Positions 842 through 14,173 of a DNA stretch of 22,511 bases are shown here, piece after piece (position 1 is the first letter of the stretch; every line of letters begins with the position of its first letter). Source of the DNA: a virus; IMG/VR virus record IMGVR_UViG_3300025771_000212, positions 1 to 22,511 of that record; one strand, written 5' to 3'. Under the pieces are notes generated by a model that did not search any database, was not told the origin of the DNA, and saw nothing but the letters and a program-made list of their open reading frames with translations. The position numbers and the translations under genes are program-made.

Positions 842-870
842 GGGGGGACGATAATTCCCTCCTTTTTTTT
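842..870 (+). terminator. Rho-independent terminator after the amidase gene
   Basis: Seven-base stem GGGGGGA (842-848) with TCCCTCC (856-862), including one G-U pair, a seven-base loop, then eight Ts (863-870). It closes the amidase transcription unit. Confidence 0.8.
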
Positions 871-880
871 ATTTGGCACG

Positions 881-910
881 TTGACAAAAAAGATAACCAG
901 TATACATTAT
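881..910 (+). promoter_or_regulatory. Sigma70-like promoter for the ParB/PAPS-reductase operon
   Basis: A consensus -35 TTGACA lies at 881-886. Two imperfect -10 candidates follow: TACATT (903-908, spacer 16) and CATTAT (905-910, spacer 18). It sits 10 bases after the terminator T-run and about 25 bases before the first gene of the next operon. Confidence 0.55.
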
Positions 911-933: not shown

Positions 934-2067
934 ATGGACATTCAAAAAAACATGCTGGAGTTGGTTAGTTATATCGAAGGGTTAGATCTTGATGAAAAGG
1001 TAGAGGCGATAAACTTTGTACGGTCTGTTATTCATGACATTAGCCCTTTTCGGGACGAGCCGGTTGATTTTGTCAAGTGGGTAAAAAACGACACTGTTGT
1101 ATCAAACGACTATAATCCAAATAAAGTAGCACCAACAGAGATGAAGCTTCTAGAGTTATCTATCCATAATGATGGATACACTCAGCCGATAGTTTCGTGG
1201 AGCAATCCAGAAAAAGATAAAACAGAAGTAATTGACGGTTTTCACAGGCACAGAGTAGGTAAAGAGTCTAAAGCAATACGTGAAAGGGTTAAGGGTTATC
1301 TTCCCGTTGTTGACATACGAAAAGAGCAAAGCGGCAAGAAAGACAGAATAGCATCTACGATCAGGCACAACAGGGCTAGGGGAAAACACCAGATTGATGC
1401 AATGAGCGAGATTGTCATTGAGCTAAAGAATAGAAATTGGAAAAATTCTAGAATTGCTAGAGAACTCGGCATGGACGAAGAAGAGGTTTTAAGACTTTGC
1501 CAGATATCGGGGCTTGAAAATCTTTTTAGCGATAAGGATTTTAGTAGAGCATGGGAAGCTCAAGATTCTTTATCTGATGCTGATTGGCAAGATATAACTG
1601 ACGATGACGGCGACGACGATGTTAGAATACCGCACATGAACGACGAACAAAGAATATTTCACACCTACCACCATTGGGAATGTCACAAGGCAGGATTCTA
1701 CGCTTCTAACGTTGAGGGGAAAACAAAAAAACAGTGTGAAGAAGAGTATAAAAACTTTTTATCTGACAAAAGTTTATTTAAAGAAACTTTAGAGAAAGTC
1801 ATAACAGAATGGAAGTTTTCATGTGAGCATTATCTTACTAATAAAGCTATGAATAGAATTGCTTGGCTTGGGCAAGCTTCGGCGTGTTATGCTCTTGGTT
1901 TGCCGTCAAAGTTTTGTGGTGGTTTTAATTTGATGTCTGAAGAAGAGAGACACGAGGCTAACTTGATAGCGTTGGATGCTCTGAATAAATGGCTTACAAA
2001 TAATGGTATGGATGTGGTAAGTCTTGAGCAAGGTTTAAACGCTACTAAGCAAGTGGAGCTATATTAA
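934..2067 (+). CDS. ParB-like/IbrB-like nucleotide-binding-fold protein with an extra conserved C-terminal domain
   Basis: Start chosen at the ATG at 934 because TGGAG (923-927) sits six bases upstream; an in-frame ATG at 922 overlaps that site. The product has 377 residues. Residues about 60-160 carry ParB/Srx-type motifs: DGFHRHRVGKE (D101-G102-F103-H104-R105) and IRHNRARGKHQ near 145-154, the pattern of IbrB-type proteins. A helix-turn-helix-like segment follows (about 170-195, RIARELGMDEEEV). After an acidic linker (DDDGDDD) comes a separate domain from about 235 to 377 with HHWECHKAGFY, EWKFSCEHYL and NRIAWLGQAS; I do not know its function. The stop codon is directly followed by the GTG of the PAPS-reductase-like gene, which implies translational coupling and joint action. 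Classical plasmid-partition ParB is unlikely: there is no ParA and the partner is IbrA-like. Confidence 0.75.
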   Translation: MDIQKNMLELVSYIEGLDLDEKVEAINFVRSVIHDISPFRDEPVDFVKWVKNDTVVSNDYNPNKVAPTEMKLLELSIHNDGYTQPIVSWSNPEKDKTEVIDGFHRHRVGKESKAIRERVKGYLPVVDIRKEQSGKKDRIASTIRHNRARGKHQIDAMSEIVIELKNRNWKNSRIARELGMDEEEVLRLCQISGLENLFSDKDFSRAWEAQDSLSDADWQDITDDDGDDDVRIPHMNDEQRIFHTYHHWECHKAGFYASNVEGKTKKQCEEEYKNFLSDKSLFKETLEKVITEWKFSCEHYLTNKAMNRIAWLGQASACYALGLPSKFCGGFNLMSEEERHEANLIALDALNKWLTNNGMDVVSLEQGLNATKQVELY

Positions 2068-3273
2068 GTGTCTAAGAAAGTTTATTTAAAAAAGTCTGTT
2101 TTAGCAGCATCGAGAGAAAGAATATCCGAGGCTTTTGATAGCTTTGAAAGGCTTTACATTAGTTTTTCTGGGGGTAAAGATTCTACTGTCATGACTCACT
2201 TGGTGATGCGAGAAGCCATTAAAAGAAAGCGAAAGGTTGGGCTTTTAATTATAGATTTAGAGGCACAATATACAGCAACTATATCGCACATAGAGGAGAT
2301 GGTTGAGAGGTATCGAGATCACATAGACCTTCATTGGTTTTGTGGTGAGTTGTTGTTGAGGAATGCCGTTTCAAACTATGAGCCTAAGTGGGTGTGTTGG
2401 GACGAAGACAAAAAGGATATTTGGGTAAGAGAAAAACCAAAGCTTGCTAGTGATCTAAGCCAGTATAGTTTTTATGTTCCCAAGATGGAATTTGAAGAGT
2501 TAATGGTTATTTTTGGTAAGTGGTACTCTCAGGGGAAAACATGTGGTGCATTTATCGGGATTAGGTCAGATGAAAGTTTGCATCGGTATAGGGCTATAGT
2601 TTCTGAAAAAAATGGTTTGATGATGAACAATAGAAAATGGACGACAAAAGTAGCTAATGGCCTTTATAATATTTATCCGATATATGACTGGAGGACTGAA
2701 GACATTTGGTTGTTTCACTCTAAACATAAGGAATATTGTTATAATAAAATATATGATCTTATGACTAGGGCGGGGGTTAAGTTTAGCAATCAAAGGTTGT
2801 GTCAGCCTTTTGGTGATGACCAGAAAAAAGGGTTGTGGCTTTATCATATACTTGAGCCGGACACTTGGTATAAGTTAATCAATAGAGTAAGTGGAGTTAA
2901 TTCAGGTGCTTTATATGCTCAGGAGACTGGTAATATAAACGGAAGCAATAAGATAGAAAAACCGAAAGATCATACTTGGCATAGTTACACTAACTTTCTT
3001 TTGAAAACCCTTCCAAAGAAAATGCAAGAAAATTACCGTGAGAGGTTTAGCAAGTTTATAGGTCAGTGGAAAAAGAGAGGTTATGACACTATTCCAGATT
3101 ATGCTCCACATGATCTGGAGGTAAAGCAGTGGGCGCCATCGTGGAGAAGGATGTGCCGTTGCATTTTGAGGAACGACTACTATTGCAAGGGATTGGGTCA
3201 GACTCAGCCTTTTTCAGAAGCTTACGGTAAGTACAAATCTTTGAAAGAAGTTGAAAAGATCAACATGGCCTGA
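2068..3273 (+). CDS. PAPS-reductase-family PP-loop protein, IbrA-like with DUF3440 C-terminus
   Basis: GTG start with no gap after the preceding stop codon; 401 residues. The PP-loop SGGKDS (residues 34-39) marks an ATP-pyrophosphatase of the phosphoadenosine-phosphosulfate reductase superfamily. Further family marks are LEAQYTATISHIEEM, WVCWDE...WVREKP, FIGIRSDESLHRYR (about 164) and YPIYDWRTEDIW. The C-terminal part with PSWRRMCRCILRNDYYCKG (about 357-375) matches the DUF3440 region of IbrA-type proteins. Such enzymes adenylate a substrate, usually as part of a sulfur-transfer or modification reaction; the substrate here is unknown. The neighbour is the ParB-like partner, as in ibrB-ibrA pairs. 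True sulfate assimilation is unlikely because the other pathway genes are absent. A DndC-type DNA phosphorothioation role is possible, but no Dnd partners lie in the window. Confidence 0.85.
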   Translation: MSKKVYLKKSVLAASRERISEAFDSFERLYISFSGGKDSTVMTHLVMREAIKRKRKVGLLIIDLEAQYTATISHIEEMVERYRDHIDLHWFCGELLLRNAVSNYEPKWVCWDEDKKDIWVREKPKLASDLSQYSFYVPKMEFEELMVIFGKWYSQGKTCGAFIGIRSDESLHRYRAIVSEKNGLMMNNRKWTTKVANGLYNIYPIYDWRTEDIWLFHSKHKEYCYNKIYDLMTRAGVKFSNQRLCQPFGDDQKKGLWLYHILEPDTWYKLINRVSGVNSGALYAQETGNINGSNKIEKPKDHTWHSYTNFLLKTLPKKMQENYRERFSKFIGQWKKRGYDTIPDYAPHDLEVKQWAPSWRRMCRCILRNDYYCKGLGQTQPFSEAYGKYKSLKEVEKINMA

Positions 3274-3327: not shown

Positions 3328-4077
3328 ATGAGAACTCATTTTGTTATCTCTGATACTCAAGTAAAGCCTAGTGTAAGTCAAAATCATATAGACTGGTTAG
3401 CTAGAGCTATCTGTCATTATATGCCAAACGAAATTATATGCCTTGGCGATTGGTGGGACATGGAAAGCCTGTCAACGTATGACATGGGAACTATAAACGC
3501 TGAAGGCAAAAGATACTATCAAGACATAGAAGCGGGCAATGAAGCTATGAAGCGGCTAATAAACCCGATTAAAAAGCGAATGAAGCTTAAGAAGAAGTGG
3601 AAACCTAAATTTACTTTTCTACTGGGCAACCATGAGCAACGTATTATTCGGACGGTAAAAAACTACCCGCATTTAAAAGACAAGCTAAGTTATGATGATT
3701 TATATTTGAAAGACTGGAAAGTTTTCGATTTTTTAAAAGTCGCTAAAATCGACGGTGTTTCTTATTCTCATTATTTTGTTAATCCAATGACCGGCAATCC
3801 TTACGGCGGAAATATTCAAAACTTGATTGCAAAGCTTGGATATAGTTTTGTGATGGGACATAAGCAAGTTTTAGAGTTTGGGAGAAAAGACTTAACTGAC
3901 GGCAATGTGGTTATGGGCTTAATTACTGGCAGCTACTATCTACATGACGAAATGTACAAAGGCCCACAGGGTAATTATCATTGGCGCGGGTGTTGTGTGC
4001 TTCACAATGTTAGAAGCGGCGTGTTTGATCTTGAGACTTTATCGCTGGATAGAATGAAGCGAGAGTATGGAAAATGA
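3328..4077 (+). CDS. Calcineurin-like metallophosphoesterase
   Basis: A 249-residue protein with the ordered metal-binding motifs of the calcineurin-like fold: SDTQ (D9, Q11 in place of the usual His), GDWWD (G40-D44), GNHEQR (G100-E103), a histidine in SYSHYF (H148) and GH in VMGHKQV (H178). The usual second His of the last GHxH motif is replaced (GHKQ). Small phosphoesterases of this type are common in phages and may act on nucleic acid ends or nucleotides; the substrate cannot be read from sequence. AGGTG stands six bases before the ATG. The gene overlaps the next by four bases (ATGA), so the two are probably translated together. It may belong to the ParB/PAPS-reductase operon or be served by its own extended -10 element. 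Confidence 0.85.
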   Translation: MRTHFVISDTQVKPSVSQNHIDWLARAICHYMPNEIICLGDWWDMESLSTYDMGTINAEGKRYYQDIEAGNEAMKRLINPIKKRMKLKKKWKPKFTFLLGNHEQRIIRTVKNYPHLKDKLSYDDLYLKDWKVFDFLKVAKIDGVSYSHYFVNPMTGNPYGGNIQNLIAKLGYSFVMGHKQVLEFGRKDLTDGNVVMGLITGSYYLHDEMYKGPQGNYHWRGCCVLHNVRSGVFDLETLSLDRMKREYGK

Positions 4078-4385
4078 AAAGCTTTAGAGATTATCCAAAA
4101 TTAGTTGATGTTGAGTCGATGAATTGGGAAGTTAGATTCAAAAGGAAACTTTTTCATGAGGGGAAAGAAGTAGACGGTTTGTGTGACTATGACGAAAAAG
4201 TGATTTATATTCGCATAAAGAAAGACCGTTGCGATATGTTTAGGGTATTTGTCCATGAAGTCTTACATGCCATAGAATATGAGAACGATCACGACATACC
4301 GCATAAATACATAGAACAAATTGACACCGGCCTAGCTAAGTTTATGAGGAAAAACATTGATAAATTGATAAAGATAATTGTTTAA
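4074..4385 (+). CDS. Small zincin-like metalloprotein with HExxH motif
   Basis: A 103-residue protein whose only recognisable motif is HEVLHAIEYEN (H61, E62, H65, E68), the helix of zinc metallopeptidases. Comparable short zincins (SprT-like or ImmA/IrrE-like minimal forms) occur in phages, but the sequence is too short to place in one family. The start overlaps the phosphoesterase stop (ATGA), showing coupled expression. It is the last gene before a strong terminator. A peptidase role is inferred; a structural zinc protein remains possible. Confidence 0.65.
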   Translation: MKSFRDYPKLVDVESMNWEVRFKRKLFHEGKEVDGLCDYDEKVIYIRIKKDRCDMFRVFVHEVLHAIEYENDHDIPHKYIEQIDTGLAKFMRKNIDKLIKIIV

Positions 4386-4932: not shown

Positions 4933-5631
4933 ATGCGCTACATGCTTTTAGCTTTAATTATTTTCGGTTGTTCATCTATCGAAAAAGAAGAAAAGAAAAA
5001 CACTTTACACTTTGATGATTCTAATTATCGGCGAGAGCTAAAGTTTTCTGTAAATGGTCAAGAGATTGACGGCTACGGTACGGCCAAAAAATCCCCGTTT
5101 GGCTATACCGTCGAGGCTAAAGTTTCCGACGAAATCTTTCGTGGTTTTGTTCGTTCTTGTAATGGAACCAAAAAGCTTGAAATACAAGAGCAGGGAACTT
5201 TTAAAAAGAAAAAATATTTTAAAACTTTCATTCCAGTATTAGGGGAGCCTTTCGACATATCCTGCTTAATAGAAATATTTTTGTTTAGCGGTAACGGTGT
5301 CCATCTTTTCGGTGTGTTTGATACTATCGGAGAAGAAAAGCTTCGGTTTCAATCTTCATGCAATTATGACAACGGCCCAAAGGTAGGCTCTGATTTTTGT
5401 CATAGCTCTGTTGGTGATTATTATTTTTTAGACTTCAAGGGAAAAAAAGTTAAATTTTTCTTTGATGAAAATTTATGCCCCGAACCAGAAGCTTTAGATG
5501 AAAATGGAAAGTATCAAATCAGGATAGTTAAAACACCATGTATATATTTAATTGCTCACAAATTATTCAAACAACGTGCTAGAATTACAATTATGGGATG
5601 GAATGATATCTTTTTAAGGGAAATATTTTGA
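4933..5631 (+). CDS. Cysteine-rich phage lipoprotein, function unknown
   Basis: A 232-residue protein opening with a very short lipoprotein signal: MRYM, a hydrophobic LLALIIF stretch, then GCSS with the lipidated Cys at residue 13. The mature part holds six more cysteines (in RSCNG, ISCLI, SSCNY, DFCHS, NLCPE and TPCIY), an even number consistent with three disulfides in the periplasm. It ends ITIMGWNDIFLREIF. The ATG abuts the stop of the preceding membrane gene, and its own end overlaps the next start. Known phage lipoproteins act as outer spanins or as superinfection-exclusion factors; at over 200 residues this is much longer than Rz1-type spanins, so exclusion or surface modification is my preferred but unproven reading. 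Confidence 0.7.
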   Translation: MRYMLLALIIFGCSSIEKEEKKNTLHFDDSNYRRELKFSVNGQEIDGYGTAKKSPFGYTVEAKVSDEIFRGFVRSCNGTKKLEIQEQGTFKKKKYFKTFIPVLGEPFDISCLIEIFLFSGNGVHLFGVFDTIGEEKLRFQSSCNYDNGPKVGSDFCHSSVGDYYFLDFKGKKVKFFFDENLCPEPEALDENGKYQIRIVKTPCIYLIAHKLFKQRARITIMGWNDIFLREIF

Positions 5632-8495: not shown

Positions 8496-8705
8496 ATGGC
8501 TTATGTGACTTATCTAAAACGCGGCGAAGCATTAAAGATCGGGGATAGTGTTATGATTCTCGAATCTGTTAGAGGTGCAAAGATAGTTTTAGAAGTTGAC
8601 GATGATACCGTCATACATAAGCTTTCTTCAGAGGAATTAAAAAATGCCAGATACCGCAAAGCGCCGACATTATCCCAGCCAAAAGAAAAAGATAAAAAAA
8701 CCTGA
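8496..8705 (+). CDS. CsrA-like small RNA-binding-type protein (candidate)
   Basis: 69 residues. The first 45 align by eye with CsrA/RsmA: KRGEALKIGD matches the CsrA R/K-x-x-E-x-(I/L)-x-IGD strand region, VRGAKIVLEV matches its V-x-G-x-(Q)V-x-L-G-(I/V) strand, and TVIHKLSSEEL corresponds to the VHREEI end, with Lys where CsrA has its RNA-binding Arg44. The C-terminal 20 residues are Lys/Pro-rich. CsrA dimers bind GGA in mRNA leaders and block translation. Here the gene lies between terminase and portal, and the portal start and its ribosome site (AGAGGA) lie inside this gene's 3' end. The ribosome site of this gene itself is poor. Chance resemblance in a short beta protein is possible. Confidence 0.5.
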   Translation: MAYVTYLKRGEALKIGDSVMILESVRGAKIVLEVDDDTVIHKLSSEELKNARYRKAPTLSQPKEKDKKT

Positions 8706-10818
8706 AGACATTGGAGAGACTAAGTACATAGACATATACGGAAGACTAGGCGAGCCTACGGGTGGCTTTTGGTCGAGTGAAAACCGAGCGTATATGGATA
8801 TACTTACCATTAAGACCCTTTTCCAATCTGAAGATTGGGTGTTTCTAGCGGTTGACGCGATTGCAGACCCTATTAGTACACTTCCCCTTAAAGTTTACAA
8901 GGTAAGCTACAACGACGAAGGAGAGAGGGTTTTAGACGCTGACATGAGCCATAAGGTAAATGTTAGACTGAGAAAACCAAATAAGTTTTCTACCCAAAAA
9001 GATTTACTTTATGGATTAGCCGCTGACTATGTACTAGCTGGCAATTCATTCGCATGGCTTGGAGATGCTGGAAACCTTTACCATGTACCGGCTGAGAAGG
9101 TTTTATATAGGTGGGGTACTGATAACATTCCAAATGGTTATTATATCGTATCGGATTTTGACGATGCAATGCCGGTTCCACAGTTTGAGACAGACTTAGA
9201 CGAGATGGGACATACAAAAAGACCTAACCCAAGCAGCACAATCTACGGGCTTTCACCTTTTGCACCGGCTAAAAGATCGGTTCTTTTTAACAGGTATTCA
9301 CAAGAATACTTGAACAACTTCTATCTTAAAGGTGCTACTCCACAAATGGTGCTAGAGCTACAGAAGGAAGCACAGGAAAAGAGTTTAAATAGACTTCAGA
9401 CTACTTTCGAGCAAAGCTTTGTCGGGCGTAGAAATCAGCGTAGAACAATGATTTTGCCAAAAGGTGTTCAATCTAAAGTTATTGAGAATAAAATAGCAGA
9501 TCAAAACTTGATTGAGCTAATCGAGATGAATGCAGACAGAATTTTGTCAGTGTTAAAAGTTCCTAAACATGTAGTCGGAAGACAGGAAAGCGGTTCACTT
9601 GGTAGCCAAGAAATGAAAATGGCTATGAAGTATTTCTGGCAAACTACAATCACAGATACGGCTAACGCTTTAAGTCAGACATTATCGAGATTGTTTTATA
9701 AACAACTTGGCCCAGAGTACACAATAGAATTTGATTTTCACAATGTGCCAGAGCTACAGGAAGACGTTTACCAAAAAGCAGAAACGTCTAACAAGATGTT
9801 GGGCTTTATGACTGTGAACGAAGTCAGGAAAATGTACTGGGGTTTAGACCCCGTGGCGGGTGGAGATGTTTTAGCATCGGCGCAGCAAACGCAACCGTTT
9901 TTTATGCCGCAAACTTTGTCAATTCCACAGAGTAACGGCGAAAAAAAAAACGAAAATAAGTTAGACCCTGAAAAAATTAAGCAAGCTATTAAGCAAGTTG
10001 ACGAAGAGATGCGCGGCATTGAGAAAGATAAGTTTGATTCAAGAAACGAAGCGGCATTGGGTGTTTTAATCGAGCAGAATTTAGAAGCGGTTGACCTTCT
10101 AAGAAAGATGGGAAAGAAAACTCTTAAGGCAAGAATAAAAGAATTTTCTATCAAAAAAGAAGAATTTGAAAAAAGGCTTTTTGATTCTTATGAAGCAATG
10201 AAAGAAGAATATTTGGATGGACATAGCGAAGACTTAAAAGATGTTACGGATCTTGGTTTTGACCAGCAGCTAACCTTGTATACGAATCCAGCTAACGCCG
10301 ATGCGATTGCAGCTAGTAAGGAAAGAAGTCAGGACGGAAGATACAGGACATTAGCAGACCGTGGACTTTTCAGTTTTGAGAGCGTGAGAGATACTAGCTT
10401 AGATAATGTAATGAAAGAGATTACAAGAGGGCTAGAAGAAGGACTTTCTATTGACGATGTGGAAAAGAACATTAAGAAATATTTTGAGGTTCATTCTGTC
10501 AATAGGGCAAATACTGTAGCTAGGACAGAAACGCTGCAAGCTTTGACGGTTGGGCAAGAGTCAGTTTTTGACGAAGCAAAGGAAGCTGGTATAGAATTTA
10601 ATAAGGTTTGGATTACCGCACAGGATGAAAGAGTTAGAGCAGATCATGTGGGCGCTAATGGTCAAGAGGCTAACGACGATGGATTTTTTAATGTTGGTGG
10701 AGAAAGCCTAAAATATCCTCGTGACCCTTCTGGAAGTGCTTCAAATACAATCAATTGCAGGTGTACGGTTTTGATGTTGCCAAAAGATGAAGATTTTGAC
10801 TTAGGAGAAATTGCATAA
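8644..10818 (+). CDS. Portal protein fused to MuF-type head morphogenesis domain
   Basis: 724 residues. Residues about 30-425 are an HK97-type portal: LTIKTLFQSEDWVFLAVDAIADPISTLPL-like entry, the YGLSPFAPA region, and VPKHVVGRQESGSLGSQEM near 305. Residues about 520-715 are a MuF/minor-head domain: SVNRANTVARTETLQA, a DERVRADHVGANGQ stretch and NTINCRCTV at the end. The portal forms the dodecameric DNA gate; MuF-type proteins are minor capsid components often ejected or bound inside. The start at 8644 has AGAGGA at good spacing and overlaps the CsrA-like gene by 62 bases. The linker between the halves holds an A10 run (9941-9950) where slippage would truncate the product to a portal of normal length. 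Confidence 0.9.
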   Translation: MPDTAKRRHYPSQKKKIKKPEDIGETKYIDIYGRLGEPTGGFWSSENRAYMDILTIKTLFQSEDWVFLAVDAIADPISTLPLKVYKVSYNDEGERVLDADMSHKVNVRLRKPNKFSTQKDLLYGLAADYVLAGNSFAWLGDAGNLYHVPAEKVLYRWGTDNIPNGYYIVSDFDDAMPVPQFETDLDEMGHTKRPNPSSTIYGLSPFAPAKRSVLFNRYSQEYLNNFYLKGATPQMVLELQKEAQEKSLNRLQTTFEQSFVGRRNQRRTMILPKGVQSKVIENKIADQNLIELIEMNADRILSVLKVPKHVVGRQESGSLGSQEMKMAMKYFWQTTITDTANALSQTLSRLFYKQLGPEYTIEFDFHNVPELQEDVYQKAETSNKMLGFMTVNEVRKMYWGLDPVAGGDVLASAQQTQPFFMPQTLSIPQSNGEKKNENKLDPEKIKQAIKQVDEEMRGIEKDKFDSRNEAALGVLIEQNLEAVDLLRKMGKKTLKARIKEFSIKKEEFEKRLFDSYEAMKEEYLDGHSEDLKDVTDLGFDQQLTLYTNPANADAIAASKERSQDGRYRTLADRGLFSFESVRDTSLDNVMKEITRGLEEGLSIDDVEKNIKKYFEVHSVNRANTVARTETLQALTVGQESVFDEAKEAGIEFNKVWITAQDERVRADHVGANGQEANDDGFFNVGGESLKYPRDPSGSASNTINCRCTVLMLPKDEDFDLGEIA
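9941..9950 (+). other. A10 slippery run in the portal-MuF linker
   Basis: Ten As read in frame as GAA AAA AAA AAC, which includes the classic heptamer A-AAA-AAC (9945-9951). A -1 shift meets TAA at 9957-9959 and gives a 438-residue protein; a +1 shift meets TAG at 9962-9964. Either ends the protein in the linker, just before the MuF half. Whether slippage takes place is not shown by sequence. Confidence 0.4.
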
Positions 10819-13603: not shown

Positions 13604-14173
13604 ATGATTATGTATAAGCTTTTTTTAAACATAGTGGAAAGCATTAGCCGAAACATTGGTTATATTTATGTGCCTTTTAATAATCGAAAGATAAAGGCTA
13701 GGCACTATAGATATATGGAAAAGCGGCTAATGGTCGGTGATATAATACTATGTAAAAGCAATGGATACTTATCAAATTTATTTATTGGTAAATATACTCA
13801 TGTGGGAATATATGCGGCCCATGATACGGTGGTAGAAGCTACTCCCAAGGGTGGTGTTTTAAAAACTGACCTGATAGACTTTAGTTTAAAAAGAGATAAA
13901 GTTTTAATTTTAAGACCTAACTTTTTGACAGAGCCAGTTGAAAGAATTGAGATACAAGACAGGCTATATGAGCAGGTTGGCAAAGATTATGATTTTAGTT
14001 TTCAAGCGGATATTAAGGATTTTTATTGCTCTGAGTTGGCTTTATACGCTTATAAGAATCCGAAGCTAAAATTCAAAGATAGGTATGGAAGTCTGACTTT
14101 TATTCCTGATGATTTTATTGATTACATAGGAACAGAATTTAGGGTGATTTATGATTCTCAAAAACAAAAGTAA
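13604..14173 (+). CDS. Permuted papain-fold hydrolase, YiiX/NlpC-P60-like
   Basis: 189 residues with the layout of the circularly permuted NlpC/P60 (YiiX/YaeF, LRAT-like) group: LMVGDIILCKSNGYLSNLF, then catalytic His66 in KYTHVGIY, an acidic VVEAT (E78) and, C-terminal, Cys142 in DFYCSELALYAY. In the permuted group the His precedes the Cys, as here. These enzymes act on amide or ester bonds of lipids or peptidoglycan. It stands alone after the capsid terminator and overlaps the next small gene by 23 bases. The start may be the ATG at 13604 or the one at 13610; neither has a strong ribosome site. A virion-borne enzyme and an accessory host-acting enzyme are both possible. Confidence 0.75.
   Translation: MIMYKLFLNIVESISRNIGYIYVPFNNRKIKARHYRYMEKRLMVGDIILCKSNGYLSNLFIGKYTHVGIYAAHDTVVEATPKGGVLKTDLIDFSLKRDKVLILRPNFLTEPVERIEIQDRLYEQVGKDYDFSFQADIKDFYCSELALYAYKNPKLKFKDRYGSLTFIPDDFIDYIGTEFRVIYDSQKQK

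Follow-up and report, generated by a model that had tools for sequence, protein, structure and literature searches.

The viral sequence analysed here encodes, side by side, a ParB-like protein and a PP-loop protein that by their sequences are an IbrA/IbrB (YbdN/YbdM) pair, both of the features that define the pair being found. Whereas this pair is known, the third component that we found tied to it in viruses, an all-helical domain for which the name Bc was coined in this analysis, is new and was previously unnamed. We tentatively propose that IbrB and IbrA act together with Bc as a single phage enzyme complex which modifies nucleic acid, probably without the use of sulfur. Pairs of the IbrA/IbrB type are widespread, being found in E. 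coli, in hundreds of plasmids and in over 200 sequenced phages, yet their reaction is not described: in the literature searched, no paper was found that deals with the chemistry of IbrA, of DUF3440 or of YbdN/YbdM, nor any describing Bc or the reaction.

The analysed stretch (the window, 22,511 nucleotides) is a 22.5 kb viral record with the gene order amidase, IbrB–IbrA pair, metallophosphoesterase, terminase, portal, capsid and tail genes. The original prediction described the pair as two genes with zero gap, and the examination of the open reading frames and the sequence agreed with it (Table 1): the GTG start of IbrA directly abuts the TAA stop codon of IbrB at 2065–2067, and all of the motifs that had been named, DGFHRHR, RHNRARG and SGGKDS, were found. 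The longest open reading frame of IbrB begins at 922; however, the alternative ATG at 934 is preferable, because a GGAG sequence is located at 924–927, six bases 5' of it; IbrA, too, has a Shine-Dalgarno GGAG of this kind (Table 1). The identity between IbrB and E. coli YbdM amounts to 53% over 204 residues, and that between IbrA and E. coli YbdN to 39% over 389 residues; therefore, this is the same gene pair as ybdNM/IbrAB and not a distant look-alike. IbrB adjoins IbrA at almost every IbrA locus fetched, so the pairing is not a matter of chance. A lack of conserved pairing in related phages had been named as a finding that would speak against the original prediction; the pair is conserved across them.

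Table 1. Positions of the features of the IbrB–IbrA module in the window and of a second small protein family in other loci.
Feature	Position	Strand	Remarks
Intrinsic terminator separating the amidase gene upstream from the pair	842–870	+	Stem 842–862, T run to 870
Promoter-like TTGACA with a weak -10	881–910	+	TTGACA 881–886; 10/12 matches
IbrB–Bc fusion protein	934–2067	+	377 aa from ATG 934; 381 aa if from 922
ParB/Srx nucleotide-binding-type domain of IbrB	1066–1380	+	Residues 49–153 (922 numbering); DGFHR 1234–1248, RHNRARG 1363–1383
Helix-turn-helix region of IbrB	1384–1524	+	Residues ~155–201; matches the KorB DNA-binding domain
Linker between the ParB/HTH part and Bc	1546–1641	+	Residues ~209–240; low-confidence model, probably flexible
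Bc domain of IbrB	1642–2064	+	Residues 241–381, all-helical; without Pfam or PHROG family
Conserved Bc motif EW..S.E..L.....N..AW.G.A	1807–1878	+	Within Bc
IbrA, PP-loop (PAPS reductase-like) + DUF3440	2068–3273	+	GTG start, GGAG 2055–2058
SGGKDS PP-loop (ATP-binding) motif of IbrA	2167–2184	+	
Conserved motif region of IbrA	2557–2691	+	GIRSDESLHR 2557–2586; YPIYDW 2674–2691
DUF3440 part of IbrA	2773–3207	+	Two Pfam stretches, 2773–3081 and 3115–3207
Second small family, modules without Bc	L003:571–948, L137:1280–1645, L143:2209–2613, L153:5627–6055, L160:1787–2596		Five more loci

The pair had also been credited with a TTGACA promoter of its own. The hexamer is present and is followed by a weak -10 element, but such promoter-like matches were not above chance (14 versus 10.9 ± 3.4 in shuffled sequence). 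Terminator-like sites numbered 7 against 1.9 ± 1.4 expected, and the terminator that precedes the pair is a better sign than TTGACA of a separate transcription unit. On the 3' side of the pair, the same strand encodes a metallophosphoesterase (phrog_221, 3328–4077) and a small metallopeptidase-like protein (4074–4385). A lipoprotein-like open reading frame without a family match (4933–5631), possibly with a surface or exclusion function, lies between the pair and the terminase. Elsewhere in the window, the portal and a Mu F-like head morphogenesis domain share a single open reading frame of 724 residues (8644–10818), and a gene of a YiiX/C92-type permuted papain-like amidase (13604–14173) is situated between the capsid and head-tail genes. 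The Rfam and tRNA scans across the window gave no matches, and the direct repeats downstream were chance-level pairs only.

The predicted fold of IbrB resembles that of the ParB family. The model aligned with KorB at Z 14.2 across 140 residues, the helix-turn-helix (HTH) included, and with ParB and Noc at Z 13–14.6, while the ParB/Srx relatives SbnI and SerK (both serine kinases) and sulfiredoxin aligned at Z about 8; the matches in this search with the whole IbrB model were reported for the ParB/HTH part. By sequence, IbrB matched a ParB-like PHROG (2e-69) and Pfam ParB_N (3e-4, below the curated cut-off of that model), with no PADLOC match and no relative among solved structures. The motifs that form the CTP pocket of ParB CTPases, the GERR-type motif 2 and the ENxxR-type motif 3, are replaced by DG.HR and RHN.ARG.H, which are nearly invariant in IbrB (189/190 and 188/190 proteins, respectively). 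Judging from the model, IbrB retains a nucleotide pocket of the ParB type, with changes in its motifs. The suggested nucleic-acid link of IbrB is thus supported, because the protein is predicted to combine a ParB nucleotide-binding domain with an HTH.

The same architecture could belong to a regulator of gene expression, with IbrB as a ParB-like promoter-binding transcription factor, IbrA supplying or sensing an adenylated nucleotide ligand, and the nucleic acid left unmodified. We regard this as rather unlikely but as a serious rival, since IbrB has an HTH and its best structural match spanning both domains is the transcriptional repressor KorB, ybdNM is under the control of CitR in E. coli (PMC9068703), and IbrAB activates the prophage eib genes in E. 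coli ECOR-9, according to the passage of PMC10434257 that cites Sandt et al. 2002. The activation of eib, the only phenotype that is known for IbrAB, fits plain gene regulation as well as it fits modification. On the other hand, an intact, strongly conserved ATP-using enzyme and the optional cupin or GNAT enzyme of the module exceed the needs of a regulator.

IbrA matched Pfam PAPS_reduct (6e-15) and DUF3440 (2e-37). Its AlphaFold2 model (pLDDT 80) aligned with FAD synthase, APS/PAPS reductase and CysD at Z 11–12.5 (ties within 1), and the sequence comparison with solved structures gave weak matches to CysD, FAD synthase and CysH. In PADLOC, the similarity of IbrA was limited to weak matches to DndC and BrxP. 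Across 191 IbrA proteins, the residues conserved in at least 97% were the PP-loop, D63/E65, several tryptophans, R121, R166, E169, S170, R173, YP.YDW, D212, R243, R273, N369 and D370. The predicted fold and the conserved PP-loop agree with the suggestion that IbrA is a PP-loop enzyme of the adenylating kind. In the structural comparison, IbrA was best matched by FAD synthase (tied with the reductases), an enzyme whose adenylation target is a free nucleotide, and this brings in another serious rival: the system might act on free nucleotides or small metabolites, making, breaking or tagging a nucleotide or an amino-acid-nucleotide, for instance in counter-defence, with IbrB acting as a ParB/Srx-fold kinase or NTPase. 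The alignment of IbrB with SbnI, SerK and sulfiredoxin is in line with such a function, as is the use of small molecules by ectoine synthase and GNAT enzymes in their known pathways. Nevertheless, IbrB keeps a full HTH and is aligned better by ParB, KorB and Noc than by SerK and SbnI (Z 14 versus 8), and we consider an action on free metabolites unlikely.

The conserved residues of IbrA bear directly on sulfur. No cysteine is universal across the 191 proteins, the invariant positions being the PP-loop and residues of acidic, basic or aromatic character; the catalytic ECGLH motif of PAPS reductases occurs in none of them, and CxxC occurs in two. From this, it follows that the reduction of sulfate is very unlikely and the transfer of sulfur is unlikely for the family as a whole. 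The best-kept cysteines, C245 and C373, are conserved at 88–89%, both being missing in 6/191 proteins; they are invariant in the clade with fused Bc, therefore a thiol role may be possible in that subgroup. A sulfur-based modification of DNA or RNA (phosphorothioate or thio-base) is a further rival, in line with the sulfur transfer that the original prediction named beside adenylation. In its support, IbrA is weakly similar to DndC (PADLOC 6e-7, NCBIfam 1e-4), the Dnd system likewise pairs a PP-loop protein with the ParB-superfamily protein DndB (PMC10853773), and the two cysteines above are candidates in the fused clade. However, DndC requires cysteines for a 4Fe-4S cluster as well as a cysteine dyad (PMC11662687, PMC10853773), which does not suit a family without a universal cysteine, and sulfur-based modification appears improbable to us.

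It is more improbable still that IbrA is a true PAPS reductase (cysH) serving as an auxiliary metabolic gene for sulfate assimilation by the host. Annotation does point in this direction: besides the Pfam match, the family phrog_2302, with 216 phage records, is named PAPS reductase/cysH, and virome and phage papers annotate such genes alike (PMC8725595, PMC10434257). The missing ECGLH, the extra DUF3440 and the association of IbrA with a ParB/HTH protein and Bc all argue against this assignment. Many viral "cysH/PAPS reductase" genes counted as sulfur-metabolism genes may consequently not reduce sulfate, and among the phage auxiliary metabolic genes annotated as PAPS reductase, many probably code for proteins of the IbrA type that lack the catalytic cysteine.

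The C-terminal ~140 residues of IbrB, overlooked in the original prediction, constitute the distinct domain Bc. The similarity to YbdM is limited to the first ~215 residues of IbrB, and behind the low-confidence linker, Bc is modelled with high confidence, most of the domain having a pLDDT of 87–98. Bc had zero matches in Pfam and PHROGs, and neither the PDB profiles nor the sequences of solved structures gave a convincing match. Near IbrA and IbrB, Bc occurs as a separate small gene in Microcystis phage Mwe-JY13, Pseudomonas phage Amjad_SA, Pseudoalteromonas phage XCL1123 and Mycobacterium phages Gaia and Nebkiss. The occurrence of Bc as a fusion to IbrB in the clade of the window and as a separate gene elsewhere argues that Bc and IbrB cooperate.

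Bc and IbrA were found together when Bc itself was used as the query. Two Bc searches of 50,697 phage records yielded six records in total (Microcystis, Pseudomonas, Pseudoalteromonas and three Mycobacterium phages), every one with IbrA. In a scan of IMG/VR with a Bc profile, at least 600 stretches matched, 592 were confirmed among the matches listed, and the best 80 were kept; the best viral loci fetched in this way (78 new) contained IbrA in 78/78 and IbrB in 76/78 cases, and in both exceptions without IbrB, IbrA runs off the contig end. When loci were fetched via a diverse IbrA profile, Bc was present in 68/80. With the same Bc profile, a limited search (a single scan with one short pattern) of 84,980 bacterial and archaeal genomes gave four loci. 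Bc is thus almost absent from these genomes as compared with viruses, and the contrast is large.

When Bc was scored as "Bc fused", "Bc separate" or "no Bc" on a tree of the 191 IbrA proteins, these states were strongly clustered. The fusion state of Bc needs only four changes on this tree, and 63 fused sequences, the window included, make up one clade (starred). A tyrosine integrase was encoded in 3/57 records with Bc and in 4/11 records without it (Fisher p = 0.011; the numbers are small, the contigs partial and the records non-independent). Together with the scarcity of Bc in bacterial genomes, these counts suggest that the three-part form resides mainly in non-integrating phages and the two-part form in prophages and chromosomes. 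Such a distribution also weighs against the regulator reading, as the activation of prophage genes makes little sense for the Bc version, the carriers of which mostly lack an integrase. Two viral contigs (L235 and L261) harbour two different IbrA/IbrB sets close together, one a 358-residue IbrA with its own ParB and the other IbrB–Bc–IbrA; in L235, a DNA methylase lies between them.

Some modules contain an additional enzyme. A cupin of the ectoine-synthase family (PF06339, E 2e-35) is inserted between IbrA and IbrB in four loci (L108, L223, L241 and L245), and in Mycobacterium phages it is joined to the N-terminal end of IbrB; in L258 and L259, the cupin–IbrB fusion was deduced from an open reading frame matched by both profiles. 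All eight cupin matches were within the module, the full-length ones being placed in one of these two ways, and all 13 matches to a GNAT acetyltransferase were inside or overlapping it. These counts come only from loci fetched through IbrA or Bc and therefore describe the position inside the locus, not absence elsewhere. Among the 50,697 phage records, such a cupin was found in five, four of them in IbrAB modules. The tailoring enzymes are present in a minority of loci. In modules without Bc, a second unnamed small protein family was encoded directly upstream of IbrA (10/10 matches; Table 1). The other immediate neighbours (PD-(D/E)XK nucleases, YqaJ, DnaB, NinG, RusA and helicases) are those of a replication/recombination region. 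Among the 25 commonest of the 66 families assigned to 120 immediate neighbours, there was no DndA, DndD or DndE, which may count further against the sulfur-based reading, and no ParA or TGT-like DpdA; neither DndD nor DndE was found in the window genes scanned.

From these results, a mechanism may be put forward for the proposed nucleic-acid-modifying complex. IbrB would recognise the nucleic acid or load on it, acting as a hub, and IbrA, as a cysteine-independent PP-loop enzyme of the ATP pyrophosphatase type, would use ATP to activate a target oxygen of a base or nucleotide. PP-loop enzymes without a sulfur relay, such as TilS, FAD synthase and the GMP and NAD synthetases, activate their substrates likewise. 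The adenylyl group would then be displaced by a nucleophile, probably other than sulfur. Bc, which may be an obligatory subunit in phages, would position IbrA or the substrate, and in some phages the GNAT acetyltransferase or the ectoine-synthase-like cupin might tailor the product. The most likely net effect would be that nucleic acid is chemically modified in the course of infection, so that the expression of phage DNA is altered or the DNA is protected; evasion of restriction by the pair, as first suggested, is possible.

A bolder version of the proposal, which we think has a small chance of being correct, is that IbrA–IbrB–Bc belongs to a new class of phage machines for nucleic-acid hypermodification: a PP-loop enzyme bound to DNA would add to a base a group linked through nitrogen, instead of sulfur, and some phages would acetylate (GNAT) or cyclise (ectoine-synthase-like cupin) the product. 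The analogy here is with lysidine synthesis followed by EctA/EctC-like tailoring. The ectoine-pathway parallel (EctA is a GNAT, EctC a cupin) stays a hint, because GNAT and cupin were not found together in the same module. Links to two established hypermodifications were considered and rejected, a thymidylate synthase homologue (thymidine) being encoded by 2/48 carriers and QueC (deazaguanine) being above the cut-off in 0/48; this scarcity of typical hypermodification partners speaks against the proposed complex. To our knowledge, none of the carriers is known to have a modified nucleoside. Genetic handles on the chemistry are offered by Bc, which in one large clade is fused to IbrB, and by the optional cupin and GNAT enzymes.

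The closest known system is IbrA–IbrB of E. coli ECOR-9, or YbdN–YbdM of K-12, in which the same two proteins are encoded by adjacent genes; it lacks Bc and has the order IbrA then IbrB, whereas in the window the IbrB–Bc fusion precedes IbrA. IbrA shares the PP-loop fold (residues ~6–262) with CysH, CysD and FAD synthase, but it lacks the ECGLH cysteine and has the additional DUF3440, and its partners are a ParB/HTH protein and Bc. IbrB resembles the CTPases ParB, Noc and KorB in having a ParB-N nucleotide-binding domain and an HTH; it differs in its DG.HR and RHN.ARG.H motifs, in the presence of Bc in place of the ParB dimerisation domain and in the lack of ParA among the neighbour families shown. 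The Dpd system, which introduces 7-deazaguanine into DNA, also joins a ParB-like ATPase, DpdB, to a base-modifying enzyme (PMC12839542), but a TGT-like DpdA was not among the neighbour families shown here, and QueC was above the cut-off in 0/48 carriers. In the Dnd system, DndB–DndC are likewise a ParB-superfamily protein and a PP-loop, PAPS-reductase-like protein (PMC10853773), but IbrA is without universal Fe-S cysteines, the DUF3440 tail and Bc are added, and the DndA, DndD and DndE families are not among the neighbours shown. By the features tested, then, the pair in the window is neither a PAPS reductase nor a Dnd system. By analogy, the system would in its working come closest to a PP-loop enzyme that is targeted to DNA and has a ParB-type partner; Dnd shows this arrangement too, and Dpd shows it with a different enzyme beside the ParB-type partner.
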